In this document: piece after piece, positions 4,489-58,095 of the stretch
Layout: the number at the start of each line of letters is the position of its first letter
Position numbering within the stretch: position 1 is the stretch's first letter
From: Halobacteria archaeon AArc-dxtr1
GTDB taxonomy: Archaea > Halobacteriota > Halobacteria > Halobacteriales > Natrialbaceae
Assembly: GCA_025517425.1 (NCBI GenBank)
Contig: JAOPJY010000003.1
Location: 205,367-269,366 of the forward strand
DNA: 64,000 nt
Reading direction: 5' to 3'
Position numbers and translations under genes: made by a program
The notes under the pieces: generated by a model
Told to the model about the DNA's origin: nothing
What the model saw: the letters and a program-made list of their open reading frames with translations, nothing else
Database searches by the model: none

Positions 4489-4490
4489 CG

Positions 4491-4895: not shown

Positions 4896-4918
4896 GACTG
4901 GTGTCAACCTCGCTTTCC

Positions 4919-4951: not shown

Positions 4952-5123
4952 ACACTTACATAAAACCCCGGGTTCAGTTCGTACGAACCATCCGTTGACT
5001 ACGCCACCTGGATTCAGCTCGGGGCGTTTCTGACAGAAATAGAACGTTCAGACTCTGCTGAATATACAGCGCAAATGTGACACCGCAGATTTCGTCGATA
5101 ATTACACGTCTTGACACAGAGGG

Positions 5124-5348: not shown

Positions 5349-5354
5349 TGACGA

Positions 5355-6170: not shown

Positions 6171-6181
6171 AGGTGATGATT

Positions 6182-6209
6182 GGCCATACCGATCTGAGTA
6201 ACTATGGCC
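6182..6209. promoter_or_regulatory. Inverted repeat GGCCATA-N14-TATGGCC in a divergent promoter
   Basis: Perfect 7-base arms at 6182-6188 and 6203-6209 sit midway between two divergent start codons (6170 and 6255), 21 bases apart (two helical turns). A TATA-like tttaattg at 6226-6233 serves the rightward gene as a leaderless transcript. It is a likely operator for the HTH protein at 6255. Confidence 0.5.
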
Positions 6210-6254
6210 GAGTGTACTCGGGTGGTTTAATTGACTGATCACGTATCGTCACCT

Positions 6255-6911: not shown

Positions 6912-6968
6912 GCCAGGATATTTCCCAAATACGATGTCTCTCCCGAGAATGTCGAGTGAGAATGGCGT

Positions 6969-6976
6969 GTGCTGCT
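6969..6976. repeat. Left 8-bp target-site duplication of the IS6 element (GTGCTGCT)
   Basis: GTGCTGCT is found here and again at 7674-7681, immediately outside the two ends of the insertion sequence. Eight-base duplications are typical of IS6-family insertion. Confidence 0.8.
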
Positions 6977-7673: not shown

Positions 7674-7681
7674 GTGCTGCT
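7674..7681. repeat. Right 8-bp target-site duplication of the IS6 element (GTGCTGCT)
   Basis: Exact copy of 6969-6976, directly abutting the right terminal repeat. Confidence 0.8.
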
Positions 7682-7830
7682 GCACCGTGATTATTTCAGT
7701 ACTATCGGCGTGAGATCGATTTGACGTGCCAGATATATCCTCTATATTTAGTAGGCGACTTTTGGCATACTTCGGATAGATCGATAGTCGCTTCGGTAAC
7801 TGCTTCTGCTGTAGGATCGCTGTCGCTCTC

Positions 7831-37258: not shown

Positions 37259-37330
37259 GGGCTCGTAGATCAGTGGTAGATCACTCCCTTGGCATGGGAG
37301 AGGCCCCGGGTTCAAATCCCGGCGAGTCCA
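37259..37330 (+). tRNA. tRNA-Ala (GGC anticodon)
   Basis: The 72-base cloverleaf is complete. Acceptor stem gggctcg pairs with cgagtcc (one G-T pair), and the discriminator is A at 37330. The D arm includes agatcagtggtagatca. The anticodon stem ctccc/gggag holds the loop ttggcat with GGC, read as Ala for GCC codons. The T arm is ccccgggttcaaatcccgg. CCA is not encoded. There is no intron. It is the boundary of the mobile-element region to its right and the likely attachment gene. Confidence 0.97.
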
Positions 37331-37498
37331 CTCGAAATTAAGTGGTTTTCCGAGGGTTCCGAAACCGACAGTAGGAACGCTGTTCGCCACGAATACCGCC
37401 GAATCCCCATTTCTGAGTCGTCCATTTTTAGGAGAGTCCACCACGGACCGTTGCGCACCTCGACGCCCTCGAGCGGTCAGTAGAGGGAGGTGGTCCGC

Positions 37499-39770: not shown

Positions 39771-40003
39771 CGGGTGCCACCATCCCCTTCGACGCGATCT
39801 GCACCAGCTGCAAGCAGACCAAGGTCAAACACGTCCGTCCTCAGGAGGTCGGCCAGCACCCGCAGATCGATCCCGACGCGATCGACGCTTCCGAGTGCAC
39901 GTCGTTCAAGCACGTCTGCTACAATTGCGAGACAGCGACCTACTGGAATCCGGTAGATGTCCTGTCGGGCCTCCTCGCGAATGATGGGGGTGACGACGAG
40001 TGA
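39767..40003 (+). CDS. Small zinc-ribbon protein
   Basis: 78 aa. Two CxxC half-sites: ICTSCKQTKVKHVRPQE and KHVCYNCETATYW. An acidic C-terminus follows. It overlaps its neighbours by 4 bases on both sides. This is the fourth to sixth Cys-rich small protein in a row, depending on how the first is counted. Confidence 0.65.
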   Translation: MTGATIPFDAICTSCKQTKVKHVRPQEVGQHPQIDPDAIDASECTSFKHVCYNCETATYWNPVDVLSGLLANDGGDDE

Positions 40004-42967: not shown

Positions 42968-43846
42968 CTATGCGTCATCGATCTCACCCTCGTTTATGCG
43001 CCGAGATACGGTGGCCTGATTGATCCCGACGATGTCCCCGATATCGCCTTGCGACAGGTCGGTCTGCTGATAAAGCCTCATCATCCACCAGTTGTCCCGG
43101 GCCCGCCGGGTGCGCTCTTTAGCTTTTTCGAGCGCATCCACATGCTCCGACCGATGGACGTAGTTCGACTGGGTTTTGCCCTCCTTGGACTCGACTTTCT
43201 TCCGATGCAGCTTCTTGAATTCAGGATGCCAGTCCAGTTTTGGCCACGAGATCGTCTCCGTTCGCTTCGAGTACGATTCCTCGTAGTGTTCGTTGTTCTT
43301 GAGTCGGTAGACTTTCGCCTCGCCTTTGGGCTCTCCTTTGTCGGTCTCTTGGCACTGAATCCAGTAATCGGCGCTGTCCGAGCCGATTCGCCCATCGACC
43401 CAGCCCTTCGACGGCGCTGTCATCATTCCGAATACCTGCCGGTAGCGCTTTGTCGCGAACGCCTGACTCAGGTTGACGTTGTCTCGAGATCCAGCACGCC
43501 GTGAGTCGACAGCGTCCTGCACTTCGTCGAGCAGGAGCACCGAACCCGGCGCGACCTCGTCGTACATCATCTCATAGTCTCGCGGATCGAGCGTCGCCTT
43601 CTCGGCTGTCCACCAGTTCATATCCCACAGAAGCGACAGCGTGACCGCGAGCGTCGTCTTGCCGACGCCCGTTTCGGCAGCTGCTGTGATGATGACGTGC
43701 ATGTCTCGCCCCGAGGTCAGCCTCGAGGCGAACTCGTGGAACATCTTCGAGTCGGTCAGTCCCGGGAACTTGTGCCAGATGTCGATCGGGGCCGACACAT
43801 CGTCGAACGGCCCCGGTCCGTCGTCTACTGGTTCTTTTGTCGCCAT
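42968..43846 (-). CDS. P-loop ATPase with C-terminal HTH (virus-type)
   Basis: 292 aa. Walker A AAAETGVGKTTLAVTLSLLW at about residues 56-75; Walker B SVLLLDEVQDAVDSRR at about 100-115; arginine-rich region ATKRYRQVFGMMTAPSKGW. The C-terminal 35 residues form an HTH (TDLSQGDIGDIVGINQATVS then RRINEG). Viral ATPases that drive genome packaging or replication initiation, such as Zot-like or the fusellovirus DnaA-like protein, have comparable size; I cannot place it more firmly. It overlaps the upstream gene by 22 bases and is the last of a three-gene leftward operon. Confidence 0.82.
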   Translation of the reverse strand: MATKEPVDDGPGPFDDVSAPIDIWHKFPGLTDSKMFHEFASRLTSGRDMHVIITAAAETGVGKTTLAVTLSLLWDMNWWTAEKATLDPRDYEMMYDEVAPGSVLLLDEVQDAVDSRRAGSRDNVNLSQAFATKRYRQVFGMMTAPSKGWVDGRIGSDSADYWIQCQETDKGEPKGEAKVYRLKNNEHYEESYSKRTETISWPKLDWHPEFKKLHRKKVESKEGKTQSNYVHRSEHVDALEKAKERTRRARDNWWMMRLYQQTDLSQGDIGDIVGINQATVSRRINEGEIDDA

Positions 43847-44406
43847 TCTTCCACCTCCTTGAGGAGTTCGTCATCGATCTCGGTTCGCGGCGTCGATTCG
43901 TCGATATCGGGGCCGAACCCGAGTTTGTTCGCTGCATCGTCGAGTTTCTGCGATGCGTTCAGGAGCACATGGCCGTCGACGAGCTCTCGGGATTGCGTGT
44001 GGATCTCGCGCTTTCCGAAGCAGTCCTCGATTTCTTTGACTTCGTCCGTCGGCTGGTTTGTCAGTGACTCCAGCCGGTCGAACCCAGTCATCGTTTGCAT
44101 CTTCGGCCGGTAATTAACCACCTCGCCGTTTTTCTTGACTGCCTCCCAGCCATCCTGAATCTGGCAGATCTCCGCTTCTTCCCAGAACTCTTCGACCGAC
44201 GTGTGCTCTCGCAACGGTTTGAGCGCCATGTAGAATTCCATCACTGCCGCCTGTAGTTCGTGGTGGATGCTCCACGGCACGTCTGGCGAGAGTTGTCGGG
44301 CTTCGATGTAATCGGACCGGGCCCGATGGTTTCGCTGCTGGGCTCGCGTGATGATCCGCGTCGCGATCGCGCCTTTTCGGGAGATCTGATCCTCGCTCGA
44401 GCTCAT
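43825..44406 (-). CDS. Hypothetical helical protein of the ATPase operon
   Basis: 193 aa, mostly helical, starting MSSSEDQISRKGAIATRIIT. The middle has SIHHELQAAVMEFYMALKPL and WEEAEICQIQDGWEAVK; a later segment RELVDGHVLLNASQKLDDAA is followed by an acidic end. There is no recognised domain. It starts in the stop of the 77-aa gene and runs 22 bases into the ATPase gene, so the three proteins are likely made together and may form a complex. Confidence 0.65.
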   Translation of the reverse strand: MSSSEDQISRKGAIATRIITRAQQRNHRARSDYIEARQLSPDVPWSIHHELQAAVMEFYMALKPLREHTSVEEFWEEAEICQIQDGWEAVKKNGEVVNYRPKMQTMTGFDRLESLTNQPTDEVKEIEDCFGKREIHTQSRELVDGHVLLNASQKLDDAANKLGFGPDIDESTPRTEIDDELLKEVEEWRQKNQ

Positions 44407-44760: not shown

Positions 44761-45117
44761 ATGGCTCTAATGCCAGACGTACTGAAAGACTCAGCCCGCG
44801 AGGGTTGGGAGCTTGGTAGTGAAGATGGGCTTAGTGGCATCAGTAAAGCCGCTGGCCTTGCGGACGGGGCGTTTACGCTTCTGTTCGTGTTGATCATCCT
44901 CGCCGTGGCCGCACTGGTCGGTGGCGAATTCCTCGAAGCAATCCCGTCCGATGGAGCGTTCGGAGACTCCATCGACACGCTCGAGGACAACGCTGCGACC
45001 TCGTTCACGCTGTTCGCGGTCGGCCTGCTCATCATCCCGGCAGCCGCTGTCGTCGGCTACCTGTGGACGCAGATGGGCGGCATGATGAACGGCGGCCTTC
45101 AGCGAATGGGCCGGTGA
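44761..45117 (+). CDS. Two-helix membrane protein, candidate major capsid protein (paralogue A)
   Basis: 118 aa from the ATG at 44761; an internal ATG at 44770 would align better with paralogue B. A short amphipathic N-terminus (LKDSAREGWELGSEDGLSGI) precedes helix 1 TLLFVLIILAVAALVGGEFL. A polar loop of about 30 residues leads to helix 2 TLFAVGLLIIPAAAVVGYLW and a Gly/Met tail GGMMNGGLQRMGR. It shares most residues with the next gene. Fusellovirus capsid proteins VP1/VP3 are likewise small, two-helix and tandem; equivalence is inference from architecture. The promoter is of leaderless type. Confidence 0.75.
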   Translation: MALMPDVLKDSAREGWELGSEDGLSGISKAAGLADGAFTLLFVLIILAVAALVGGEFLEAIPSDGAFGDSIDTLEDNAATSFTLFAVGLLIIPAAAVVGYLWTQMGGMMNGGLQRMGR

Positions 45118-45123
45118 GCGTCG

Positions 45124-45480
45124 ATGCTGGACCAGCTCAAGCATAACGCAAATCGAGGATGGGAGATGGGCCGTGAAGACGGCTTCAGCGGCGTCACTCG
45201 AGCTGCGGGGCTTGCGGACGGGGCGTTTACGCTCCTGTTCGTGTTGATCATCCTCGCCGTGGCCGCACTGGTCGGTGGCGAATTCCTCGATGCTATCGAG
45301 GTCCCAACTGAAGATCCGACTCCGATCGAGGAGTCGATTGGCGACATCGAGTCCAACGCTTCGACAGCCTTCGTGCTGTTCGGCGTTGGCATCCTCGTGA
45401 TCCCGGCCGCTGCCGTTGTCGGCTATCTGTGGACGCAGATGGGCGGCATGATCGGTGGCGGCCTTCAGCGAATGCGCTAA
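45124..45480 (+). CDS. Two-helix membrane protein, candidate major capsid protein (paralogue B)
   Basis: 118 aa starting MLDQLKHNANRGWEMGREDG. The same layout as paralogue A: ADGAFTLLFVLIILAVAALV is nearly identical, the loop differs (VPTEDPTPIEESIGDIES), and helix 2 is VLFGVGILVIPAAAVVGYLW. The C-terminus is GGMIGGGLQRMR. The genes are 6 bases apart and the copies also match at the DNA level over the first helix. The pair looks like a tandem duplication with a diverging exposed loop. Confidence 0.75.
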   Translation: MLDQLKHNANRGWEMGREDGFSGVTRAAGLADGAFTLLFVLIILAVAALVGGEFLDAIEVPTEDPTPIEESIGDIESNASTAFVLFGVGILVIPAAAVVGYLWTQMGGMIGGGLQRMR

Positions 45481-45523: not shown

Positions 45524-45784
45524 ATGTCACAAGCACTCAGCAGGGCAGCGCTCGGCTTTGGCGTGTTGCTCGTCGGCCTTCTCACGACTATCGCAGCCGC
45601 CGATCTGGCATACGACGGCGCCGATAGCGAGGCCGACGTTCTCGACACGTTCCACCCGGTCGCCGAAACCGTCCTGCCACTCCTTCCGTTGATCGTCCTC
45701 TTCGTCGCCGTGTTCGGCCTGATCGGCGCGGCTGCGTGGTTTCTGAACACCGTCAAATCCGGTTCCGGAGGTGGTTACCGATGA
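45524..45784 (+). CDS. Two-helix membrane protein
   Basis: 86 aa. RAALGFGVLLVGLLTTIAAA, a polar loop with ADSEADVLDTFHPVAE, then LPLLPLIVLFVAVFGLIGAA and a Gly-rich basic end (KSGSGGGYR). The two-helix plan resembles the paralogues upstream, without clear sequence identity. It overlaps the next gene by 4 bases. A virion or membrane-assembly part is inferred from context. Confidence 0.68.
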   Translation: MSQALSRAALGFGVLLVGLLTTIAAADLAYDGADSEADVLDTFHPVAETVLPLLPLIVLFVAVFGLIGAAAWFLNTVKSGSGGGYR

Positions 45785-46107
45785 TCCTTGAGGTTTTGCT
45801 GGCGCTGCTCGCGATTGGCACGCTCGCATCCGCCGCGATGGCGCTCAAAGTCGCACCCGTGTATTCGGCGATGATGAGTATGGCCGTCTGGCTCGTCGTC
45901 GCGTACGCGTCGACGTCAGTTGACGTCCTTCTCGCAACCAACGACGAGGTCGTCACGCACACAGTCAACGAGCCAGCGCTGGCTATCCTCGCGTTCGGGA
46001 ACGCCGCGATCTCGTTGATCATCCTGGTCGCAGCCGTCGCTGGCCAGTACGGCGCTGGCGAACAGACCGGCATAGACGAACCCTACAATCCGACTGAACA
46101 CCCATGA
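45781..46107 (+). CDS. Membrane protein, three hydrophobic segments
   Basis: 108 aa beginning MILEVLLALLAIGTLASAAM. Further segments: AMMSMAVWLVVAYASTSVDV and LAILAFGNAAISLIILVAAV. The tail is polar (GEQTGIDEPYNPTEHP). It overlaps both neighbours by 4 bases. No family recognised. Confidence 0.66.
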   Translation: MILEVLLALLAIGTLASAAMALKVAPVYSAMMSMAVWLVVAYASTSVDVLLATNDEVVTHTVNEPALAILAFGNAAISLIILVAAVAGQYGAGEQTGIDEPYNPTEHP

Positions 46108-46727
46108 TGCGCAAGCGCAAACAACCCGAGCGACCAGATCCAGAAGAACAGCACCGACGGAGTCAAGAGCAGACCCAGCACTCCGCCGCAACACAGACCG
46201 CCGCCCAAGAGGCGGCCAAGAGCACGCCCGACCTCTCCGAGCTCCAGAGTAAGGAGTTCATCGAGACCGCCTTCGAGCCGGACGTCAACCGTGGCGATGG
46301 AGTCCCCGGGTTCGAGAACAACCGCCTCGAGGAGCGCTATGCTGCTGAGTTCGGTCGTCACGCTGGCCTTGGGAACATCACCCGAGAAGAGTGGGAAGAC
46401 CGCAAGCACCTCAACAGGGCTCGGGCAATCCTCGCGCTCCAGGAGTACCGCCGTCCGAACGGCCTCGGTTCCATGTGCCGGGAAGATATCCGAAAGGCGT
46501 GGACTGACGAAGACGAACCGCTCCCCAAGCGTGACGACGACCTCTCGCGCGAGGTTCGGGCGATGTTCGACGAGAAGACGAATCTTGAAAGCCTGTCGAT
46601 CGGTGCGAAAGGCTTCGACGGTCTCACCAAGATTCACGCGGTCACCTACTCTCAGAATGAGGGTGGATCAAGTGGCAAAAGCGGGCTTCTAAGCCGGATG
46701 ACTGGCGGCCTAATGGGGGGTAATTAG
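46104..46727 (+). CDS. Soluble hypothetical protein of the structural block
   Basis: 207 aa. The basic, Gln-rich start (MMRKRKQPERPDPEEQHRRS) looks disordered. A helical core follows: AAEFGRHAGLGNITREEWED, KHLNRARAILALQEYRRPNG. The C-terminus is Gly/Ser-rich (MTGGLMGGN). No domain is recognised. Given its place it may be a minor virion or scaffold protein. Confidence 0.62.
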   Translation: MMRKRKQPERPDPEEQHRRSQEQTQHSAATQTAAQEAAKSTPDLSELQSKEFIETAFEPDVNRGDGVPGFENNRLEERYAAEFGRHAGLGNITREEWEDRKHLNRARAILALQEYRRPNGLGSMCREDIRKAWTDEDEPLPKRDDDLSREVRAMFDEKTNLESLSIGAKGFDGLTKIHAVTYSQNEGGSSGKSGLLSRMTGGLMGGN

Positions 46728-47483
46728 ATGAAGGAATACATCCCCTTCACGCAGGCCCGCCGCCAGCGGTTATACGCGGAATCACTCCATCGACAGCGTG
46801 GAAACCACGAGGTTCTCCTGCAGATCGAGTATCCTGATGGCACCGAGCAGATGAAGCCTGCGGACTGGGATTCAACTGAATCCTGTTGGAAAACACCCGA
46901 CGAACAGCGGTTTTACTCGAAGGGATTCGGTGGCGACCCCGGGATCCTGAACGGAGTCCCGATCGTCCACGTCGACGCCAGCAACGCTGGAGTCGTCTCC
47001 AGAGAGGCTGCGAAAGCAGCTGCCCGAGAGGATGACTACGACTACGTCGACAGTGACGGGAACGCACTCGAAGTTGTGGAGACAGACGAAGACGGCGCTC
47101 CAATCAAAGTAACGTACTCTGACGATGTGGATAGCTCGGTCGCCTCTGATGGCGGTGCGATGGATATCGACGATGTAGATCTCGCGTACGATCTGTCAGC
47201 ACCAGAGGAGTACGATGGCGAGATCATCAAACGTCGTCTCGCGGGTTACTATGACCCGTATCCCGTCTCACGTCAGGAGGCAGACCAAGCCGTCGAGCAC
47301 GCGAAGAGTGCCGCGGCCGACGCGGCGGGAACGTTGAAGACATTCCTGATCGGCTTCGGAGTCGCCTTCGCCGCCATCCTTCTGTTCATCGTCCTCATGT
47401 GGCTGCTTGGCCAGATCGGTGGCGGTGAAGAAGGGGGGAACGTCATCCCTGCGATGGTGAACAGTATGGGGGTATTCCGATGA
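46728..47483 (+). CDS. Tail-anchored protein of the structural block
   Basis: 251 aa. Residues 1-190 are soluble, with an acidic strand-rich N-terminal domain (EVLLQIEYPDGTEQMKPADW) and a linker. A single membrane helix LIGFGVAFAAILLFIVLMWL lies near residues 205-230, then a Gly/Glu tail with NVIPAMVNSMGVFR. The N-terminus probably faces the virion or cell interior. It follows the previous gene without a gap. Confidence 0.64.
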   Translation: MKEYIPFTQARRQRLYAESLHRQRGNHEVLLQIEYPDGTEQMKPADWDSTESCWKTPDEQRFYSKGFGGDPGILNGVPIVHVDASNAGVVSREAAKAAAREDDYDYVDSDGNALEVVETDEDGAPIKVTYSDDVDSSVASDGGAMDIDDVDLAYDLSAPEEYDGEIIKRRLAGYYDPYPVSRQEADQAVEHAKSAAADAAGTLKTFLIGFGVAFAAILLFIVLMWLLGQIGGGEEGGNVIPAMVNSMGVFR

Positions 47484-47506
47484 CTCAATCTGGGAGGAGG
47501 TAACCG

Positions 47507-50500
47507 ATGTCTGATCCGCCGGCAGAATTCGATCGATCTGTGGCCAGAGAGCAGCGACGCGAGTCTGCAATCGAGCGCCGTCGTCAAGAAGAGCAAGAAG
47601 AGCGGCTCCGCGAAGAGATTGCTGCAGCTGAGGGAGTCGACCCGGCTCACGTTGAGGTTGAGCAGAGGAATGGAGAGATCATCCCACGGCTCACAGACGA
47701 AGGTGAGCAGACCCTTATTGACCAGGAGCGAGAGCGTTCCCGTCAGGAACTTAGAGAAGAGGTTGCTGACGATCTTGGTCTTGAGGTGAGTCAAGTTGCA
47801 GTTGAGCGTGAAGACGAACAGTTCGTGGCCGAACCCACCGAAGAGGGCGAGCAGACGCTCCGCGATGCAGAGGTTGATCGAGCTCGGAGCGAGTTGAGAG
47901 ATGACGTTGCGGACGATCTCGGGCTGGATCCAGACCACGTGCGCGTTATCGAGACCGATGATGGTCTGACCGCAGAACCAACCTCACAGGGAGAGCAGAT
48001 CCTCGTTGACGAGGCAGAGACAGAGATACGTGAGGAAATCGCTGATGAAACTGGCGTGGATCCGGATGACGACATCATTATCGAGGATGGCGAGGCTCGC
48101 TTAACTGACGAGATCCAACAGCAACGCGAGCAAGAACAGCGAGAGGAATTTGTCTCCAGTCTCGACGATGAGATTACCGATCTCATCGATCCAGATCCCG
48201 ATGAGGATGTCGTTATCGACGATGGTCAGATCCAACTCGCCGACGGTGCGGAACAGCAACTCCAGGACGCCACTGAACAACGGCAACGCGAGGAGTTTGT
48301 CTCTGATCTTCGGACAGATGTTCCCGCCGGTACCCGTCTCGACGCAGATGAGGATGTCGTTGTCGAAGATGACGAGATTCGCCTCTCCTCGGACGCCCAG
48401 GACCGAATCCGAGATCTGCAGATCGAAGAGCACCGAGAAGAGGCTGCAGACGATATCGGCATTGATCCAGATGAACTTCGCGTTATCGATGATGGCGATG
48501 AGATCTCGCTCGAACCCACATCAGACGGTGAGGAACGCCTTGGTCGAGAGCGGTTGTTTGACCAGCGTTCGGAGTTAGCCGACGAACTCGGCATCCGTGA
48601 ACAGATGATCGACGTCGAAATGGACGGTGATGTTGATGACTGGGGACTCGATATGGACCCCTCCGTTGCTGGCCACGTCGATGATCCTGCAGACCTCCCT
48701 GGAATTGAAGACGAGCGGGACGAGTTCGCCGACGAACTTGGAATTGAGGTTGAGGATCTGAACATCACCACCGAGGATGGAGAGGTTGCCTTCGAGCCTG
48801 TTGGAGATGGCCGCGAGCAACTGGCTCGAGAAGGGTTGTTTGACCAGCGTTCGGAGTTAGCCGACGAGCTCGGCATCCGTGAACAGATGATCGACGTCGA
48901 AATGGACGGTGATGTTGATGACTGGGGACTCGATATGGACCCCTCCGTTGCTGGCCACGTCGATGATCCTGCAGACCTTCCAGGCGTTGGCAGCGCACGC
49001 GAGGGATTAGCCGACGATTTGGGAGTTTCAGAAGACCAGATCGATATCGACGCGGTCGGTGGCGAGATCTCTCTTGATCCGACGGATGAGGCGATCGAGG
49101 ATGTCACACGCAGAGAGCTCGATACACAGCGCTACGACGTCGCACGCGATCTCGGAATAGATCATCGGGCGCTTGAGATCGATACGGAAGGAGACGTCGA
49201 AGACTGGGGCTTCGATGTTGATCCCGGTCGTGTCAGCGATCCACTCGACGTCCCCGGCGTAGAGGATGCTCGAGAAGACTTTGCCGAGGAGTTGGGCGTC
49301 TCGGAAGATGAGATCGATATCGAAACCGTCGACGACGAGATCACGCTCGGACCAACAGAAGCTGCAGAGGAGCAACTGATACTTGACGAAGTGGCTGGTG
49401 AGCTTGGCGTGTCTCCTGACGATCTCGTTCTGACCGACGTCGATCCTCAGGACGTCGACGAGGTAGAAGAGATGCGTCGTCATTTCGCCGACGAAGTTGG
49501 GCTTTGGCCCGATGCAATCGACGTCAGCCAGCAAAACGGAGAGATTGGATTCAGCGTGGCCGACCGGTTCGACGGCTTCGAGGACGCCACTGAGACGATG
49601 GATTTCGAAGGAGAGTTGACTGGTGTCCAACTCGCGGACGATGCAGATCCGTTTGCCATCGATGCTGTCGAAGATCAACGCCAAGATGTCGCTGACGAGC
49701 TCGGCATCGATGAACATCTCGTTAGCGCCGATATCGAAGATGGTGCTGTCGAGTTCGATCTTCGACCTCGCGGCGAGGCGCTCGTCGAGCGCCAACATCT
49801 CGACGAACAACGCGAGGAGTTTGCCTCCGAGATCGGCGTCGAACCTGGAGACGTGGTGAGAGAAGACGACCAGTTCACAATATCTGAAGATGCCCAACTT
49901 GGGCAGGTTGAGCAACAGGTTTCAGAGGATCTCGGCATCAGTGCCGACGATCTCGAGGCGACGTTCCGTGACGAAGAAGTCGTTGCTGAAGAGCGATTTC
50001 GTCGATCTCGAATGGGGTTAGACGCTGACGACGTCCAAGAAGTCGATATCGATATCGATCCAGATGTCGAAAGCGAGCTGCTCCGAGACGATGCAGCCGA
50101 GACGCTCGGCATTGATCCCGGTGAGGTCGAGGGAGTCGACCCATCGACAGGCGAACTTGAGTTATCTCGTGGTGCTCAGGAGGATCTGCTGCTCGAGCAG
50201 ATCCAAGATGAAGATCCCGGTGTCGATCCAGACGACGTCAGCTTCGTCGAAGACGACGGCGAATTGGTTGCAGAGGTTGAGGGGCCGTCCACGTTCGACA
50301 TGGCTGTCGATCGTTTTGTCTCGATCGGTCGCGAAGAGCACACGCCCCAGGACATCGCCTCAGGCATCGCCGATGGTGTCGTCGATATCGGCTCCAACAT
50401 CAGAGAATCTGTTTCTGGGGCCGCCGAGACGGTTGTAGACGTTGGACAGGAAGCACACAGCCCGCAAGATATCGTGTCAGACGCTGTCGACACTGTTCCA

Positions 50501-52078
50501 ATCGACGAGCGAGCAGCCATCGCTGGCGGTGGCCTCTTGGCAGCACCAGATCCAGTGACCGACATTGGTGGCGCTGCGATCTTGACCGGCGGCGCGCTTG
50601 CAGGGGGAGCCGTGCTCGCTCACGAGCGGTTAACAGAGACTGAGATTGATGAGATCGAACAAGAGACACCAGGTCTGACTGGCGCCGAAATCGACATCCC
50701 AGAAGACAGTGTAGAGTGGGATGTAACCGAGATCGAGGCTCCTGAAGGGCGTGTTGAGTGGGATGCGACTGAGTTTGAAGCCCCTGGAGAACGCGTCGAA
50801 TGGGACACCACAGAACTCGACATCCCAGAAGATCGTCTGGAGTGGCACCAAGAGGAAGTTGGAGTTCCGGAGGACGTCATCGATGAACGGGCAGAGGTCG
50901 GTATTCCAACGATCGAAGCTGCCGAATTTGCGGGTCTCGATCGCCAGTTCGAGGAGGACATCGAACCCGTCTCCGAAGGCGTTAGTGCCGGCGTTATCAC
51001 CGCCGACGATCTCGTCGATCCCGACGAGATGCACCAAGGCGTCGAGCGCGAGCTCGAAGACCAGCAGTTCGACCAAGCCGATTTCGAGCTCGATCGCATC
51101 CAAGAGACGCTATCGGACGATGCGCTGGCCGAGCAAGAGGTCTTCGAAGATGTCACTGGCGAACTCACGCAAGGAGGGACGTTTAGAGACGTGCCCGGAC
51201 AGGCGATCTGGGATGATAGCGAAACACTGAGCCGCGTCGCTGGTGAGCAACTCGCTGAAGAGCCGACACCCGACGCCATCGAGGATACACTCGAGCTGAT
51301 CGAGCAAACCCGGCCGGAAGTATTCGACGACGCCACGACCGAAGCGCCTCAGGGCGTGTCTGAGAGTATCGTTCAGCAGCCAACCGATGCCGTCGATCAT
51401 GTTGGCGGCATCGCAGTTGGTCCAGGACTCGGTAGCGGCCCTCGAGCGCCAGTACTCCCAGACCAACCCGCGTTCGAAGAGCAGATCCTCGACCGGGGTG
51501 CGGTCCCGCCGCTGGTTGATGATGCCGTGCGGCTCGGTCCCGGAGAAGAAATCGTCCACGAACAGCCGTCAGCAATTCCGGAAACGCCACGCGAGCGGGT
51601 CGATTCTCATCTCCGAGAGGGTTTACACGAGCGCCTCGCGGACGACGTCGTCCAACAACCCCAGGGGCGCATCGATGTCGATGTGCCACCGATGGAGCAG
51701 CAACAGCCGGACGTCGGTGCGCCAATGGCACCTGAGCTTCGGACGGGAGTGGCACCATCCGACGAGTTCGTGAGCCCACTCTCACCCACTCAGGTTGAGG
51801 CCGACACCGAGGTCGCGAACCCACAAGAACACCAAGTGGCATTCGAGACGCCGTTCGTCACCCCTCAGGTCCATCAGACTGGTCGACAGGGTCGCCCGCC
51901 GCTTCGGGTGCCGATGCCCGATCTCGATGCCGAAGACGGGGCTGAAGGCGAGGTCCCCGGCTGGCAACAGGGCGACTATTTCAACCCGTTCGCTGGGCCG
52001 GGAGAGATCCTTGGCATCGGCGCTCCTGGCCAATCGCCGATGCAGGGCCTGTTCGGAGGAGGTGGCCAGCGTGGATAG
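47507..52078 (+). CDS. Giant modular repeat protein (1523 aa)
   Basis: The largest gene of the element. A strong ribosome binding site (ggaggaggtaa) lies just before the ATG. Residues about 1-900 are built of some 18-20 imperfect units of 40-50 residues, each an acidic helix, then ADELGI-type turn, then a beta pair (for example EEVADDLGLEVSQVAVERED followed by EPTEEGEQTL). Two units near residues 349-396 and 443-490 are almost identical. Residues about 990-1045 contain a hydrophobic Gly/Ala stretch (GGAAILTGGALAGGAVLAHE). About 1060-1130 carry five 15-residue repeats of the type RVEWDATEFEAPGE. The end is Pro/Gln-rich. A long structural, tether or tape-measure-like role is conceivable; no family recognised. 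Confidence 0.75.
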   Translation: MSDPPAEFDRSVAREQRRESAIERRRQEEQEERLREEIAAAEGVDPAHVEVEQRNGEIIPRLTDEGEQTLIDQERERSRQELREEVADDLGLEVSQVAVEREDEQFVAEPTEEGEQTLRDAEVDRARSELRDDVADDLGLDPDHVRVIETDDGLTAEPTSQGEQILVDEAETEIREEIADETGVDPDDDIIIEDGEARLTDEIQQQREQEQREEFVSSLDDEITDLIDPDPDEDVVIDDGQIQLADGAEQQLQDATEQRQREEFVSDLRTDVPAGTRLDADEDVVVEDDEIRLSSDAQDRIRDLQIEEHREEAADDIGIDPDELRVIDDGDEISLEPTSDGEERLGRERLFDQRSELADELGIREQMIDVEMDGDVDDWGLDMDPSVAGHVDDPADLPGIEDERDEFADELGIEVEDLNITTEDGEVAFEPVGDGREQLAREGLFDQRSELADELGIREQMIDVEMDGDVDDWGLDMDPSVAGHVDDPADLPGVGSAREGLADDLGVSEDQIDIDAVGGEISLDPTDEAIEDVTRRELDTQRYDVARDLGIDHRALEIDTEGDVEDWGFDVDPGRVSDPLDVPGVEDAREDFAEELGVSEDEIDIETVDDEITLGPTEAAEEQLILDEVAGELGVSPDDLVLTDVDPQDVDEVEEMRRHFADEVGLWPDAIDVSQQNGEIGFSVADRFDGFEDATETMDFEGELTGVQLADDADPFAIDAVEDQRQDVADELGIDEHLVSADIEDGAVEFDLRPRGEALVERQHLDEQREEFASEIGVEPGDVVREDDQFTISEDAQLGQVEQQVSEDLGISADDLEATFRDEEVVAEERFRRSRMGLDADDVQEVDIDIDPDVESELLRDDAAETLGIDPGEVEGVDPSTGELELSRGAQEDLLLEQIQDEDPGVDPDDVSFVEDDGELVAEVEGPSTFDMAVDRFVSIGREEHTPQDIASGIADGVVDIGSNIRESVSGAAETVVDVGQEAHSPQDIVSDAVDTVPIDERAAIAGGGLLAAPDPVTDIGGAAILTGGALAGGAVLAHERLTETEIDEIEQETPGLTGAEIDIPEDSVEWDVTEIEAPEGRVEWDATEFEAPGERVEWDTTELDIPEDRLEWHQEEVGVPEDVIDERAEVGIPTIEAAEFAGLDRQFEEDIEPVSEGVSAGVITADDLVDPDEMHQGVERELEDQQFDQADFELDRIQETLSDDALAEQEVFEDVTGELTQGGTFRDVPGQAIWDDSETLSRVAGEQLAEEPTPDAIEDTLELIEQTRPEVFDDATTEAPQGVSESIVQQPTDAVDHVGGIAVGPGLGSGPRAPVLPDQPAFEEQILDRGAVPPLVDDAVRLGPGEEIVHEQPSAIPETPRERVDSHLREGLHERLADDVVQQPQGRIDVDVPPMEQQQPDVGAPMAPELRTGVAPSDEFVSPLSPTQVEADTEVANPQEHQVAFETPFVTPQVHQTGRQGRPPLRVPMPDLDAEDGAEGEVPGWQQGDYFNPFAGPGEILGIGAPGQSPMQGLFGGGGQRG
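48552..48696 (+). repeat. 145-bp internal direct repeat, copy 1
   Basis: Identical to 48834-48978 at 144 of 145 positions (one A/G difference in a silent site). It encodes the ELGIREQMIDVEMDGDVDDW unit. The offset is 282 bases (94 codons), so frame is kept. Confidence 0.93.
48834..48978 (+). repeat. 145-bp internal direct repeat, copy 2
   Basis: Second copy of 48552-48696. The flanking units differ clearly, so the duplication or conversion is recent relative to the other repeats of the gene. Confidence 0.93.
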
Positions 52079-52322
52079 AGCGCAAACGTCGCTCCCGTAC
52101 ATGCTGCTCCTGGGAGCTGTGTCGTTTGTCCTGATGACCTACCTCTACGTTGTCCTGGACCCGGTCGTCACCGAGATCGTCGGGACATCGGCCTGGCAGG
52201 ATGGATCCGAGGAGACGATGGCCGGACGAGAGCGTCTTCTGGCGATGTGGGACGTTGCGCTGATTCTCGGCCTGACTGGTATCGGTCTCACTATCCTGTG
52301 GGCCTCACGGAGGGGAGTCTGA
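52071..52322 (+). CDS. Two-helix membrane protein
   Basis: 83 aa from a GTG overlapping the giant gene's stop. Segments LPYMLLLGAVSFVLMTYLYV and ALILGLTGIGLTILWASRRG flank a polar loop with WQDGSEETMAGRE. Same plan as the next gene. No family recognised. Confidence 0.65.
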   Translation: MDRAQTSLPYMLLLGAVSFVLMTYLYVVLDPVVTEIVGTSAWQDGSEETMAGRERLLAMWDVALILGLTGIGLTILWASRRGV

Positions 52323-52582
52323 TGCTGATCCTGCGCGTGATCGTCGTGATCGTCGGCCTCTTCACGCTCGTGTTGATGGGGCTGATGGTCGGGCTCGTCG
52401 TCGACCCGCTCTTCGAGGAGGTGATCGCCAACGATGCAGTCGAGTCGATGGGGATGGACCAGAGCCTGCGCGTTGCGATGATGATTGGTATGGGGATGGT
52501 CCTGCCGCTGCTCGGCGTGGCGGCGCTCATCTGGCTGCACACATCTGGACTGAAACACGACGTCGGACACCGGAGGTACTGA
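52322..52582 (+). CDS. Two-helix membrane protein
   Basis: 86 aa. LILRVIVVIVGLFTLVLMGL with GLVVDPLFEEVIANDAVE as loop, then MIGMGMVLPLLGVAALIWLH and a short basic tail. Both this and the preceding protein share a V-V-DP motif after helix 1, so they are probably distant paralogues. ATG overlaps the previous stop by one base. Confidence 0.65.
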   Translation: MLILRVIVVIVGLFTLVLMGLMVGLVVDPLFEEVIANDAVESMGMDQSLRVAMMIGMGMVLPLLGVAALIWLHTSGLKHDVGHRRY

Positions 52583-52584
52583 TC

Positions 52585-52686
52585 ATGACGACAGATGACC
52601 TGAAACGGCTCCAGGAAGAGGCGCTCGCAGAGGCGAATCGTGAACTGAACGCTGCGGCACGCACACGAATCCAGACCAATGATTGA
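52585..52686 (+). CDS. Tiny helical protein (33 aa)
   Basis: MTTDDLKRLQEEALAEANRE then LNAAARTRIQTND, a single amphipathic helix. It overlaps the next gene by 8 bases and follows the previous stop by 2 bases, which supports translation. No function known. Confidence 0.5.
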   Translation: MTTDDLKRLQEEALAEANRELNAAARTRIQTND

Positions 52687-53587
52687 CGAACAGAAGATCC
52701 GGGAGATCGTCCAAGACGAGCTCCAGAAGGCAGATGCATCGACAGCAGACGAACAAGACAGCGGAGGATACAGCCGGCGAAACATCTTGCAGGGGGCAGG
52801 CCTCTTCGGCTTCGGATCCCTCGCAGCAACGGCAGTTGGACGCGGAGGTATCGGCCAGGCCAGTGCCAACAACGGTGATGCTCTCTACGGCATTGATCAG
52901 ATCGGGCTACCAGACGATCGCGTCGAGACACTCTACGTCGACGAGGTTGACAGCGTCCTCGAGGCCGGAACGCTGGACGGAGATCTCGACGCAGACGGGT
53001 ACGATATCCAGAACGCTGGATCGGTCAGTACAGAGGAGGCAGATGTCGACGAGGCATTAGTGTCTCTTTTGAGGGACGGCGAAGCCAGAGTTGATCGGCG
53101 CGAAGTCTATGCTATCGAATTAACGGGACAAGGAGGATTTGACGAGACAATAGATGTGCCTCTCTCTGATGGAGTCACAACGATTGTTAGGGCAAAAGAT
53201 ATCGACGATGAGACTGGCAATGTCGAGATCCGATTGCAGTGGGGAGACAGGCAGAGCGACCGCTATACTTTCCTCCATCGGAATGAGCAAGGGGAGACTG
53301 ATAGAGAGGACAATGCCACATCATGGGCTCTGCTCACGCATCACGATGGGGACCGCAATGTCACATCTGGCGAGTGGACTATTCGTCAAACAAACGATGC
53401 TGCGGAAATATCAGGCAGTGGCTATGATATGTTTGGCGAAGAGCACGAAGCTCTAACAGCCGGCGGATTAAGTGGAACCAAAGAAGAGGACGAAATCCGT
53501 CTCGTCACCAATAACGATCCGTCGAGTGATAGTGATTTCAGTTGGGAGTTCCAAATTTTAATCGTGGATGGTGGTTTGGGAAACTGA
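52679..53587 (+). CDS. Tat-exported adhesin-like protein
   Basis: 302 aa. A helical N-terminus (IREIVQDELQKADAS) precedes a twin-arginine signal GYSRRNILQGAGLFGFGSLA at about residues 30-50. After it comes a short repeat region typical of archaeal virus and surface fibres (LDADGYDIQNAGSVSTEEAD). A beta-rich C-terminal domain follows (ETDREDNATSWALLTHHDGD). From about 53040 the gene is visibly richer in A and T than the block before it. A receptor-binding or surface role is inferred. Confidence 0.68.
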   Translation: MIDEQKIREIVQDELQKADASTADEQDSGGYSRRNILQGAGLFGFGSLAATAVGRGGIGQASANNGDALYGIDQIGLPDDRVETLYVDEVDSVLEAGTLDGDLDADGYDIQNAGSVSTEEADVDEALVSLLRDGEARVDRREVYAIELTGQGGFDETIDVPLSDGVTTIVRAKDIDDETGNVEIRLQWGDRQSDRYTFLHRNEQGETDREDNATSWALLTHHDGDRNVTSGEWTIRQTNDAAEISGSGYDMFGEEHEALTAGGLSGTKEEDEIRLVTNNDPSSDSDFSWEFQILIVDGGLGN

Positions 53588-53593
53588 TGAATG

Positions 53594-53618
53594 CCACCAC
53601 TGATTTCGACGGTGGTGG
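53594..53618 (+). terminator. Hairpin between the adhesin-like and carboxypeptidase genes
   Basis: ccaccac and gtggtgg form a 7-bp stem with an 11-base loop, 7 bases after the stop at 53587. The loop side includes accactgat, the 9-mer also present in the two promoter boxes at 44715 and 54726. Terminator or regulatory hairpin. Confidence 0.45.
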
Positions 53619-53630
53619 GGGCGTATTATT

Positions 53631-54647
53631 ATGAATGTGAAGTTTGAAACTTACGACGAAAACGGGACACCCCCCTCAGAATACGACTCATACGGAATGT
53701 TTCGTCTGGATGGAGTCGCAGGACAGACGGTTAATTTTGTCTGGGACAATGTGGATGACATCCGGGATGACCGCGTTCCGAGTGATTATAATCTCCTATG
53801 GACGACAGATGTGGATGACCCGGATAGCTGGCAACGATTCGAGGACAGTCCCCCTATTTGGTCCAAGTCATTTGGTCCAGACGAAAACACGGTTTACGTC
53901 CTCATATGGCCGTCATTGAACTACCAAAACACAGTCGATTATGCCCAAAAACTCGACGAACACGACGAAGTAACTCTTGATGTTATAGGGCAAAGCCAGG
54001 AGGGGCGTGATGTCTACCGAATGGCTATCTCAGACCCTGAAGTTCCTGACAGTGACAAATTAAAATTCCCAATATTCTCAAGAATCCATCCGGGTGAATC
54101 TTTGATAAGTTACACTTTTGAGGGTATGGTTGATTACATCCTTGACGTCTTCCAGGACCCTGATATTGAGTTCGAGGAGGACTACAATTTCCTTTGTTAC
54201 CCGCATCTACATCCCGATGGAATGTATCATGGTTGGGACCGCTACGATGCCGACGAAAGGGACTTTAATCGGGTCTGGGAAGAGGAGACTCCCCCTGCCC
54301 CGATTGATGACATTCGCTCGGACATCGAGGATATGCCGGGAGAGCCAGATTGGTTAGTCGATCTCCACTGTGCAACGCACACCGATCAGGACGCAGCTCT
54401 ATACCATCCCGATGCTCCAAACGCTGACGAGATGGATATAATCGAGGCTGTGGCCGATAAATCGCTATCGATGAGCGACACGAAAGCATGGGACACTGAG
54501 GGGGGAACGACTACTTGGTGGTATGAGAAGCACGGGAGACCGGGAGTGTTGAGCGAGACATGGACTTACTACGACTACGAATTGGACGAACTCAGAGAGG
54601 AGGGGGAAAACTTCATGAAGGAATTGACAACGACTGTTGACTCCTGA
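53631..54647 (+). CDS. M14-family zinc carboxypeptidase
   Basis: 338 aa. The M14 active site is complete: H153 and E156 in SRIHPGESL, H246 in WLVDLHCATH, the Asn-Arg pair in DFNRVW (N213, R214), and catalytic E309 in GVLSETWTYY. Supporting motifs are VIGQSQEGRDVYRMAIS and CYPHLHPDGMYHGWD. A beta-rich N-terminal domain of about 100 residues precedes it, like the N-domain of cytosolic carboxypeptidases. There is no signal peptide. Base composition is lower in G+C than the flanks, suggesting acquisition. The substrate could be a host or virion protein's C-terminus. Confidence 0.9.
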   Translation: MNVKFETYDENGTPPSEYDSYGMFRLDGVAGQTVNFVWDNVDDIRDDRVPSDYNLLWTTDVDDPDSWQRFEDSPPIWSKSFGPDENTVYVLIWPSLNYQNTVDYAQKLDEHDEVTLDVIGQSQEGRDVYRMAISDPEVPDSDKLKFPIFSRIHPGESLISYTFEGMVDYILDVFQDPDIEFEEDYNFLCYPHLHPDGMYHGWDRYDADERDFNRVWEEETPPAPIDDIRSDIEDMPGEPDWLVDLHCATHTDQDAALYHPDAPNADEMDIIEAVADKSLSMSDTKAWDTEGGTTTWWYEKHGRPGVLSETWTYYDYELDELREEGENFMKELTTTVDS

Positions 54648-54725
54648 GGCGCACTTTGCACGAGACTCATTCCTGACTGTCGTGGAATAAACGTTCGATC
54701 CACCACCTGAGCCACCACGCGAGTT

Positions 54726-54777
54726 ACCACTGATCCGATGTTTTGAGAGTCTACTTGATGTTTGCCCGCGCATGGCT
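54726..54777 (+). promoter_or_regulatory. Second copy of the structural-block promoter box
   Basis: Matches 44715-44766 at 38 of 52 positions with no gap, including accactgat, gttttg and the final gcgcatggct. In this copy the atggct would open a 10-codon frame (54772-54804), and the real gene starts at 54826. A transcript starting here would have a leader of about 55-60 bases. Confidence 0.6.
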
Positions 54778-54825
54778 TCGACCGTTTTCACATGTTACAG
54801 CTAAGGCGGCCAGCACAGGGACACG

Positions 54826-57084
54826 ATGGGATCTGACACAGGACTCAGCCGGAAACAGCGCGTCCTCTTAGTCCTGGCTGGCGCGCTTTTCGTCCTCGTG
54901 CTTCCACTTCTCGTCAACGCAGCACTCTCATCGCTCTACACCGCTGAGCCCGGGATTACGTACGATTCCAGCGACGGCCCACAGATCGAGTTAGCGACCG
55001 AACTCGAGAGTGACGCCGCCGAGCCCTTCCCCGAAGAGAACACCGTCGACATGAGCCCGCAGGCCGAGTTCTACAGTGACGGCCCGACTCAGGCGACCGT
55101 CGACCAGTTCGGCGACGACGGGTCACAGACACAGCTCTCGGATCTGAACGTCTCTGATCACCAGCTCGAGATCGATGTCGGCGATCGCGAGCGCGTGGCT
55201 ATCCAGGGCGACGCGGACGAGATCGCGTTCAACGATCCGGACGTGGACGCGGGCGAGGTGATGACCGTCACCCAGTCGGGCACCAGCGAGATCTCCATCT
55301 GGGGTGTCGACGACGAACTCGTCGCTGTTATCGACTCGGACAGTCAGGAGATTATCGAGTGGGTCGAGCCCGACGACGGGATCGTGACGTTCGACGTCGA
55401 CGGTGACCGCTCGATCGAGATGTTATCGGGAGAACCGCCTGTGATCGATTCCGACAGCGCCGAACCTGTCGGCGACCAGGACGAGTTCCCCGAGTCGTTG
55501 CAGGTTGACGTCGAATCCGGCTCCGGAATTGACGAAGACCTTGACGTCGAGTTCGAGCTGAACGGTGAAGACGTCGGCAGCGATACCGTCACCGGTTCCG
55601 GGACGGCATCCACCTCAGTTGACGTCGACGACGTCGGAACACACACGTGGACAGTGACCGTTACGAACGAATTCGGCGACACGTCGACTGAAGAGTTCGA
55701 GTTCGAACTCGACGACACACCACCAGAGATCGATCGCGACAGCGCCGAGCCCGTCGGCGACCTCTCGACGATGCCCGACGACCTCAGCGTCGACATCGCA
55801 CCCGGAACAGACTTTGCGAGCGAGTTCGAGGCCGAGTTCGAGCTCAACGGCGAGTCAGTCGGCACCGACAGCTTCGACGGATCAGGGACTGCGTCAGTCC
55901 CATTCGACGAAGAGGACGGTGGCTCACACACCTGGTCGGTGACCGTCACCGACGAGTTTGGACAGTCGTCAACTGAAGAGTTCGAGTTCGCCTTCCCAGA
56001 CGAACTCATCATCCGCGACGTCACCACGGCCGAGGTCATCAACGAGGCGAACGTCACAGTCGAGTTCTTCAGCGGCGAGTTAGTGACTGAGGCGCAGACG
56101 ACCGACGGCGTCATCGATATGGGGGGTGTGCCGGTTGAGGAGAACCTGATCGTTTCCATCGACGCCGAAGGCTACCACAGCCGGACAACGATCATTCCCT
56201 CCATCCTCGAGCAGCAGACCGCTTGGATGCTCGACCAAGACGAAGACTCCGTCCTCAACGAGTTCGAGATCAACGACGAGACCGGCAGCTTCCAGACCGG
56301 AGAAACGCGTCTCGAGATCAGTCGCCCGATCCCTGATGAAGACACTGACGAGCGCACGTTCGAGGTCGTTGCTGGCGATTACTTCGGTGCAGATGGTGTC
56401 TTCCCCGTCGAACTCGCCACGGGGCAGCGCTACCAGCTTGCGGTCGTCAACGACGACGGCGAGCGCCGATCCGTCGGGACATACACCCCACGGACAGACG
56501 GCCTTCGAACGATCGACATCGGATCCACATCGTGGAGTCTCGGCGACGACGAGAGTTACGCAACCGAGGCACGATACACGACCGAGGAGATCGACGGTGA
56601 GGAGGTCGATCATATCATCTTCGAGTTCGGCGATCCCGAGAATCGCGTTTCGGACTTGGAAGTCCGCGTCGAGGACCGATTCAACAGTTCGAACGTGATC
56701 CACGACGAGTCCGTCGCCGATCCAAGTGACTACCGGCTCGTTCTCCCGCTCGAGGAGGACCAAACAGACACACAATGGGTTATCAACTACAGCGCAACCG
56801 TCGACGGAGAAGTACGGCAAGCCAAGATGCCAGTCGGGCCTTCGGAGGACATCCCCCTCCCCATGGACGCACAATGGCTCCAGACGCTCGTGATCGTCGC
56901 GCTTGTCGTGCTTGCCGCGGCGTTCCCCGGCCCACTGTCCTCCATCGGCGGCGCCGTCGTCGTCTCGATGGCCGGTCTCGCCATGATGGCTGGCTGGCTT
57001 GGGATCCCCGTCTCCGCCTGGTTCGTCGCCGCGACGATCGCGGCGTTGGGCATCCTACGAGCGAGGGAGGCTGAAACGATATGA
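54826..57084 (+). CDS. Membrane-anchored Ig-like surface protein, candidate virion spike
   Basis: 752 aa. An N-terminal membrane helix (VLLVLAGALFVLVLPLLVNA, about 13-32) is followed by a long extracellular part. Two related Ig-like domains of about 95 residues lie near 205-400 (each with DSAEPVGD and ending in HTWTVTVTNEFGDTSTEEFE or a near copy). Further beta-rich domains follow to about 680, including a carboxypeptidase-regulatory-like region (VTVEFFSGELVTEAQTTDGV). Two or three helices close the protein (LQTLVIVALVVLAAAFPGPL). The size and anchoring recall fusellovirus end-filament proteins, an analogy only. Confidence 0.72.
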   Translation: MGSDTGLSRKQRVLLVLAGALFVLVLPLLVNAALSSLYTAEPGITYDSSDGPQIELATELESDAAEPFPEENTVDMSPQAEFYSDGPTQATVDQFGDDGSQTQLSDLNVSDHQLEIDVGDRERVAIQGDADEIAFNDPDVDAGEVMTVTQSGTSEISIWGVDDELVAVIDSDSQEIIEWVEPDDGIVTFDVDGDRSIEMLSGEPPVIDSDSAEPVGDQDEFPESLQVDVESGSGIDEDLDVEFELNGEDVGSDTVTGSGTASTSVDVDDVGTHTWTVTVTNEFGDTSTEEFEFELDDTPPEIDRDSAEPVGDLSTMPDDLSVDIAPGTDFASEFEAEFELNGESVGTDSFDGSGTASVPFDEEDGGSHTWSVTVTDEFGQSSTEEFEFAFPDELIIRDVTTAEVINEANVTVEFFSGELVTEAQTTDGVIDMGGVPVEENLIVSIDAEGYHSRTTIIPSILEQQTAWMLDQDEDSVLNEFEINDETGSFQTGETRLEISRPIPDEDTDERTFEVVAGDYFGADGVFPVELATGQRYQLAVVNDDGERRSVGTYTPRTDGLRTIDIGSTSWSLGDDESYATEARYTTEEIDGEEVDHIIFEFGDPENRVSDLEVRVEDRFNSSNVIHDESVADPSDYRLVLPLEEDQTDTQWVINYSATVDGEVRQAKMPVGPSEDIPLPMDAQWLQTLVIVALVVLAAAFPGPLSSIGGAVVVSMAGLAMMAGWLGIPVSAWFVAATIAALGILRAREAETI

Positions 57085-57452
57085 AGGGACTCCAGATCGC
57101 CGCCTTCGTGTTCTGTTTCAGCCTCTCGATCGGCTTACTCGCCGGCCTCGGGTGGTTCGACGTCGTCGGGACGCAGCCCGATCCCGGGATCGACAACACC
57201 GACGCCGTCGAAGAAGAGGCTGAAGAGGTCGAAGCAGGTGGAGAGAGCAGCCGGGATGAAGGCATCCTCGGCACCATTGGGGCAGTCAACGACGTGATCA
57301 ACACCCTCAGGACGTTAACAGTGCAGACCGGGTCAGCCCTGACGAATCTGGGGGTCCCGGCGCCGATCGCGTACGCGATCCACTCTGTCGTCGCGCTCGC
57401 GCTCCTGGTCACGATGCTCGAGATCATCCGTGGTATGAGGTTCGGAACATGA
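57081..57452 (+). CDS. Two-helix membrane protein
   Basis: 123 aa. AAFVFCFSLSIGLLAGLGWF, an acidic loop (DAVEEEAEEVEAGGESSRDE), an amphipathic segment NDVINTLRTLTVQTGSALTN, then AIHSVVALALLVTMLEIIRG. Start overlaps the previous stop by 4 bases. No family recognised. Confidence 0.66.
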   Translation: MKGLQIAAFVFCFSLSIGLLAGLGWFDVVGTQPDPGIDNTDAVEEEAEEVEAGGESSRDEGILGTIGAVNDVINTLRTLTVQTGSALTNLGVPAPIAYAIHSVVALALLVTMLEIIRGMRFGT

Positions 57453-57742
57453 GAGGCGATCGCGAGTGGTACCGGTATCTCGGTGAGGGAGAGTTCTGGG
57501 ATGCGCTCTTTCAGCCACACATCGACACGGTCGGAACCGCCGGTCTGGCGATGCTTATCGGAGTGCCGCTGATCCTCTCGCTCTACGCCTGGACGGGGAC
57601 GTTCCTCATTCCAGCAATCATCCTGGCACTGTTCGGCGGCATCATGATCATGGCGGCGCCGCCCCAGCTCGCGATCATCGGGACGCTCATGGTCGTGACT
57701 GCAGTGACGATCTCGTTGCTCTCGGTCTGGGGTGACACCTGA
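57449..57742 (+). CDS. Membrane protein, three hydrophobic segments
   Basis: 97 aa. After REWYRYLGEGEFWDALFQPH the segments are GLAMLIGVPLILSLYAWTG, LIPAIILALFGGIMIMAA and IIGTLMVVTAVTISLLSV. It is coupled to both neighbours by overlapping start and stop codons. Unknown family. Confidence 0.66.
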   Translation: MRGDREWYRYLGEGEFWDALFQPHIDTVGTAGLAMLIGVPLILSLYAWTGTFLIPAIILALFGGIMIMAAPPQLAIIGTLMVVTAVTISLLSVWGDT

Positions 57743-58095
57743 TGTCGATCGCACACCGAGAGGTTCGGACGTGGCGGTGGCTCGTCTGGTTGCTCGTCCC
57801 GGCGCTCCCGCTGCACGAGCTCACGCACGCGATCGTCGCGAAGCCCTGGGCCGATGTCGAGATCGACTGGCACCACCCGATGGTCATCATGCACTGGGAC
57901 GATGCGCCCCCGTGGGCGATCCTCTGCGCTCACGTCGCGCCGCTGTTGATCGGCTGTCTCGTCGGCAGCGCGGCGCTGTTCGCCTTTGCGATCGGGTTCG
58001 TTCCCGAGCTCCACTTCTTGGTCTGGGTGTGGCTCCTCGGCAACTGGTTCAATTACACAGCGCTGACGCTGCAGGACCTACGCGTCTTCTCCTGA
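57742..58095 (+). CDS. Small membrane protein with HELTH metalloprotease-like motif
   Basis: 117 aa. Helix 1 is WLVWLLVPALPLHELTHAIV; the HELTH fits the HExxH zinc motif of membrane-embedded metalloproteases and of DUF3267-type proteins. A third ligand could be in IDWHHPMVIMHWDD or in the later ELHFLVWVWLLGNWFNYTAL. Last gene of the coupled structural block. It might process one of the membrane proteins, but this is inference. Confidence 0.7.
   Translation: MSIAHREVRTWRWLVWLLVPALPLHELTHAIVAKPWADVEIDWHHPMVIMHWDDAPPWAILCAHVAPLLIGCLVGSAALFAFAIGFVPELHFLVWVWLLGNWFNYTALTLQDLRVFS

Follow-up and report, generated by a model that had tools for sequence, protein, structure and literature searches.

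The window (the whole 64,000-nt stretch of DNA analysed here) contains what we read as an exchangeable receptor module belonging to a spindle-shaped virus, accompanied by a carboxypeptidase of which the viral collections searched yielded no close relative. The two genes concerned encode a fibre protein with a twin-arginine (Tat) signal and an M14 carboxypeptidase, and, with somewhat better than even confidence, we read them as what now occupies a variable slot of an LSV-48N-like provirus, the enzyme acting at the surface together with the fibre on exposed host proteins.

We read the region from a tRNA-Ala gene to the end of the contig as a provirus of ~29 kb. The 13 nt at the 3' end of the tRNA gene recur exactly at the contig end (window coordinate about 66,600, ~29.3 kb downstream), where the gene for a 335-aa tyrosine integrase adjoins the repeat; the element is integrated in the host chromosome, with an integrase at one end. 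The far flank of the provirus lies outside the view because the contig stops inside the 13-nt repeat. The source genome belongs to the same GTDB family as Natrialba, Natronorubrum and Natrarchaeobius. The features on which the following account draws are:

37259..37331, + strand: tRNA-Ala (ggc), left attachment site of the provirus (ARAGORN)
40000..41982, + strand: DUF7845 protein, a replication endonuclease of the Rep-Arvir type (Pfam DUF7845, E 2e-88; 74% identity in the Natrarchaeobius element)
42968..44406, - strand: P-loop ATPase and its partner protein, element core (matches in many sister elements and in LSV-48N)
44770..45480, + strand: two small paralogous membrane proteins, candidate capsid proteins (tandem hydrophobic pair, same place in sister elements)
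45524..52582, + strand: conserved structural-type genes up to the slot (order kept across the element family)
52071-52322 and 52322-52582, + strand: the last two genes before the slot, encoding small membrane proteins
52679..53587, + strand: 302-aa fibre protein with a Tat signal (alignment of the nine slot proteins; position kept in sister elements)
53057..54806, unstranded: low-GC exchanged segment, comprising the fibre C-terminal part, the peptidase and an intergenic tail (GC segmentation with block-shuffle control; per-gene GC3)
53587..53634, + strand: short reading MNATTDFDGGGGVLL followed by a stop, the displaced M14-family N-terminal motif (shares bases with both the fibre stop, TGATG, and the M14 start, ATGA)
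53631..54647, + strand: M14 carboxypeptidase, M14D/CCP-like, 338 aa (Pfam, PDB sequence search, AlphaFold2, Foldseek, VIA-align)
54826..57084, + strand: Ig-like tail-type protein, C-terminally membrane-spanning, 752 aa (LSV-48N CDS0012, 35.6%, E 5e-68)
57081..58095, + strand: three small membrane proteins, the last with an HExxH motif (conserved after the Ig-like gene)

Both ORFs of the preliminary description, those of the fibre and the peptidase, are present at these coordinates. An Rfam scan of 50000-58000 gave no match. Among the core structural-type genes, 47507-52078 encodes a 1523-aa acidic protein of no known family with recurring units (e.g. RSELADELGIREQMIDVEMDGDVDDWGLDMDPSVAGHVDDPADLPG, which occurs twice).

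Judged by its genes, the element is a member of the LSV-48N-like family of lemon-shaped viruses. It has the gene core of that family, in the same order around the Ig-like protein, and the virus-like structural block in which the pair had been placed is borne out by the matches of the core genes to LSV-48N. The window and LSV-48N (Haloferax, PP151251; PMC12714723) have in common the Ig-like protein, the ATPase and its partner, the large structural-type protein, the DUF7845 Rep, an Orc1/Cdc6-like protein and the integrase, whereas the slot of LSV-48N contains neither a fibre nor an M14 gene and its Ig-like protein is longer (904 versus 752 aa). The DUF7845 family has been reported from both LSV-48N and SNJ2 (PMC13107129). 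Particles of LSV-48N have been imaged, and the most abundant protein of the supernatant has a C-terminus resembling a tail protein of SSV19 (PMC12714723); from the residue ranges given, we infer it to be the Ig-like protein, CDS0012. Relatives of the Ig-like protein occur in 36 of 392 haloarchaeal genomes, and also on plasmids, including PL23 of Natronomonas pharaonis (NC_007428.1), which is itself an LSV-48N-like element with a slot fibre, the ATPase, a DUF7845-type protein and the Ig-like protein. Downstream of the Ig-like gene, the small membrane protein encoded by 57742-58095 contains the sequence HELTH and gives a weak match, below the cut-off, to DUF3267 ('putative zincin'); HE[LA]TH is retained in six of its seven sister-element homologues, and it is possibly a conserved membrane metallopeptidase of the LSV-48N-like family.

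Forty 20-kb regions were retrieved, and their genes were called automatically and matched. The order is constant: the ATPase and its partner lie on one strand, and on the opposite strand follow two small membrane proteins, three to four genes, a protein of ~1000 aa, two more small membrane proteins, the slot and the Ig-like protein. When the slots were sorted by hand from these automatic gene calls, with rearranged or partial loci excluded, 21 of 30 loci had an empty slot and nine, the window among them, had a Tat fibre; an M14 gene is present in the slot of the window only, among these 30 hand-classified loci. One extra locus (L072) encodes a 348-aa slot protein devoid of the Tat motif, and in a genome of the same genus (G396) the fibre is 423 aa long and an M14 is lacking. 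The Natrinema fibre is followed by a LamG protein and the fibre of G023 by a Pfam beta-helix protein; for the other tips, Pfam gives no match. Beside a fibre, the Ig-like protein is shorter (median 659 versus 830 aa; Mann–Whitney p 0.0025, for a small sample with automatic gene starts). The comparison of homologous elements for which the preliminary description had called thus finds the slot to be either empty or occupied by other Tat fibres in the sisters, and the two genes are not fixed among relatives. With slot contents that vary and a core that is constant, the proposal of an exchangeable module within a viral structural block is well supported by these sequence comparisons.

The window fibre is made up of an N-terminal helix, the motif SRRNIL, a conserved linker (GIDQIGLPDDRVETLYVDEV) reaching to about residue 120 and a unique C-terminal part. 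The first ~120 residues, with the helix, the RR pair and the linker, are common to the same-slot fibres of sister elements, and the C-terminal parts differ. All the marks of a slot fibre are accordingly present, namely the helix, an SRRxxL-type motif, a GTxGTxDxPLxAIYVD-like linker and an adjacent Ig-like gene. Across the nine slot proteins, only M1, R33-R34 and G76 are invariant; the twin-arginine signal that had been assigned to the neighbour of the M14 gene is, therefore, both present as a motif and invariant in its RR. The fibre-like repeat attributed to the same protein did not hold up: the cassette DNA has no meaningful repeat, only one chance-like pair of 20 nt. A search of 125 genomes with the full-length fibre returned a single N-terminal match besides itself, and the shared N-termini emerged via the conserved slot; no relatives of the fibre were found in plasmids or phages, and no homologue of its C-terminal part was detected. 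The model of the fibre is poor (mean pLDDT 43), and it was left out of the fold searches.

The segmentation of the core by GC content gives one outlying segment, 53057-54806, with a GC of 0.495 versus 0.598 for the rest of the core and a log-likelihood ratio of 33.2, whereas the highest value among 100 block shuffles was 23.9. Its left border falls at about codon 127 of the fibre gene, where the conserved N-terminus has just ended, and on the right 20 bases separate it from the Ig-like gene; therefore, the exchanged unit is the C-terminal part of the fibre plus the peptidase, and not two whole genes. The difference in composition from both flanks that had been noted for the cassette is, thus, real in its low GC (by segmentation and GC3), but its borders exclude the first part of the fibre gene. 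A further low-GC stretch lies outside the provirus, at 4001-8000 of the window (~0.54-0.56 versus ~0.65). The shape of the exchanged unit bears on the idea that the M14 gene is host cargo, serving the scavenging of extracellular peptides or a surface change that excludes other viruses, rather than being a tool of infection. Such cargo genes are often present in proviruses, and the Natrialba relatives of the enzyme lie near a large secreted subtilisin-like protease; nevertheless, the window gene sits between two structural-type genes on the same strand, and the break in composition that it shares with the fibre tip ties it to the fibre, such that we regard a cargo role as quite unlikely.

The 338-aa protein is the sole Pfam M14 protein in its genome (Peptidase_M14, E 2.3e-9). 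H153-P-G-E156, N213-R214, H246 and E309 are invariant in five aligned clade sequences, and the HxxE zinc ligands, the distal His and the catalytic Glu (H153, E156, H246 and E309, respectively) are all in place, so the earlier statement that the catalytic and zinc residues are intact is upheld. Its best sequence relatives in the PDB are the M14D enzymes 3k2k, 3l2n, 4b6z and 4a37 together with CCP5, of the cytosolic-carboxypeptidase (CCP) group. A modestly confident AlphaFold2 model (pLDDT 67, pTM 0.71) matches these same structures full length in Foldseek and VIA-align, the extra N-terminal beta-domain included. Although the bacterial M14D enzymes and CCP5 thus match best in both sequence and fold along almost the entire protein, with the same catalytic motifs, identity in the fold alignments is 15-18%, and the element copies code the N-terminal FDGG segment outside the catalytic ORF. 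We use the name 'M14D-like' because this N-terminal FD(G/S/A)G segment lies outside the enzyme chain. The M14 had been called complete; this is true of the catalytic domain, which is whole, but not of the family's N-terminal TTDFDGGGG segment, which is coded upstream in another frame (53587-53634). From its family membership and the retained substrate-carboxylate residues N213-R214, the enzyme is predicted to trim protein C-termini.

Beyond three Natrialba species, Natronorubrum halalkaliphilum and one Natrarchaeobius element, no close relatives of the M14 were found. The enzymes of Natrialba taiwanensis, N. asiatica and N. aegyptia are 34-36% identical to the window M14 and fall within the same small clade, but they differ from the element copies in being chromosomal and in being single chains that bear a Tat signal themselves and have the N-terminus in frame; no signal peptide is seen on the window enzyme, nor is there one on the Natrarchaeobius element copy or the Natronorubrum relative. 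In two of the Natrialba species, N. taiwanensis and, by the position of CapC, N. aegyptia, capC and capB lie ~8.5 kb downstream of the related M14 (L134, L043, L044). This proximity would suit a depolymerase of poly-gamma-glutamate capsules of the phage PghP type. PghP of phage phiNIT1 is, likewise, a viral zinc enzyme related to carboxypeptidase A, and it attacks a host surface polymer by opening gamma-PGA (PMC4497714). In PghP-type enzymes, however, Arg127, Asn144 and Arg145 are replaced (the Asn144/Arg145-type residues by Thr/Ser), such that the substrate-carboxylate pair retained as N213-R214 in the window enzyme is missing (PMC6506827). Moreover, the genomes of the window, Natrarchaeobius and Natronorubrum give no CapC match, and the cap genes of N. 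asiatica are on another contig. Because the Asn/Arg pair is retained and the window's genome has no match to CapC, we disfavour this assignment and consider it very improbable.

No relative of the M14 was found in IMG/VR by single-protein and profile patterns (a pattern scan that detects close relatives only) or in phages by tblastn, and the pairing of a Tat protein with an M14 enzyme, therefore, rests on two cases. The second is provided by a Natrarchaeobius chitinivorans contig of 44,423 bases, which has the core of the same element family, including the DUF7845 protein, and appears circular because the ATPase ORF continues from one end of the contig into the other. Its own slot is empty; elsewhere, it encodes a LamG membrane protein, a 357-aa protein with a Tat signal and then, after 2 nt, an M14 of 326 aa that is 31% identical to the window M14. 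The two element M14s cluster together, with weak support (85/78). Homology between the window fibre and the Natrarchaeobius Tat protein was not detectable; what recurs is, therefore, the arrangement. A gene for a thiamine-pyrophosphate enzyme (535 aa; L047:15869-17476) adjoins the Tat/M14 cassette of this circular element.

Eukaryotic CCPs trim the C-terminal tails of tubulin, and a peptidase that stays in the cytoplasm and shortens host proteins at their C-terminal tails (acidic tails, for instance, of proteins of the CetZ/FtsZ type or other) would agree with the inclusion of CCP5 among the best PDB matches and with the missing signal peptide of both element copies and the Natronorubrum relative. 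Set against this are the Tat signals of the Natrialba relatives and the fact that in two elements, though not at the same site, the M14 gene immediately follows one for a Tat-signal protein, and we judge a cytoplasmic role to be unlikely. The preliminary description had also named CetZ as a possible target, for which we find no support: the fibre and the Natrialba enzymes have Tat signals, even if these are lacking in both element copies of the enzyme and in one of its cellular relatives. Our favoured interpretation, by analogy, is that the M14 acts at the cell surface, as suggested by the two Tat-protein/M14 pairs, the Natrialba Tat signals and the precedent of SSV19.

In both element copies, the N-terminal TDxDGGGG motif lies outside the catalytic frame, whereas the Natrialba and Natronorubrum genes have it in frame; the Tat protein of the Natrarchaeobius element ends with this motif. 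The N-domains of bacterial M14D enzymes open with the same kind of segment (NFDGG/NFDAG), and a search of 1.43 Mb in six frames found [DN][FY]D[GSA]GGG solely ahead of these M14 genes. The plainest reason for the displacement is a simple frame break or, in the window, a base error in its short G run. Within 53580-53650, GGGAAAC, which has the shape of a classic -1 slippery heptamer, stands right before the fibre stop, and with a -1 shift at this point the fibre would gain LMNATTDFDGGGGVLL; the heptamer may be there by chance. A programmed frameshift fusing fibre and enzyme was rejected as a mechanism common to both elements because no slippery stretch is seen at the Natrarchaeobius junction; in the window, such a shift could nonetheless give the fibre the same tail as the Natrarchaeobius Tat protein. 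Given that neither viral enzyme ORF includes the opening segment of the M14D N-domain, docking of the enzyme on the fibre could occur. Fibre and peptidase would then be a split pair, joined by strand complementation, in which the enzyme passes the Tat pore as a folded passenger to become a virion-attached carboxypeptidase; we consider this an improbable elaboration.

Returning to the interpretation that we prefer, in which fibre and peptidase fill the slot and act together at the surface, the conserved N-terminus of the fibre would serve for its export and anchoring by the Tat route, and the unique C-terminal part would be the binding tip. The M14 gene, presumably gained together with that tip, would provide a zinc carboxypeptidase of the M14D group that works at the cell surface alongside the fibre and strips C-terminal residues from exposed host proteins, and this trimming might serve attachment, release or the exclusion of rival viruses. 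That the peptidase is exported (perhaps with the fibre as its carrier), where on virion or cell it sits and what its substrate is are all inferred. A role of the module in host range would be in keeping with its position in the slot. A hydrolytic tail component acting on the host surface has a precedent among spindle-shaped viruses: SSV19 hydrolyses a host surface glycan via an endo-mannanase domain in its tailspike, VP4 (PMC12042106). The two cases differ in that the SSV19 activity is that of a glycan hydrolase within one large protein of another virus family, whereas the window has a separate peptidase gene beside a Tat fibre.

To our knowledge, host recognition by the lemon-shaped viruses of halophiles is nearly unstudied. 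The locus described here marks the slot where fibre tips are exchanged and enzymes added in the LSV-48N family, so that the comparison or deletion of one slot offers a test of receptor swapping. The swapping of slot contents suggests that this virus family changes its surface-acting tools on meeting new hosts. If the pairing of peptidase and fibre is true, it would extend to host proteins the experimental case of a surface-hydrolysing archaeal virion, which concerns a glycan hydrolase (PMC12042106).
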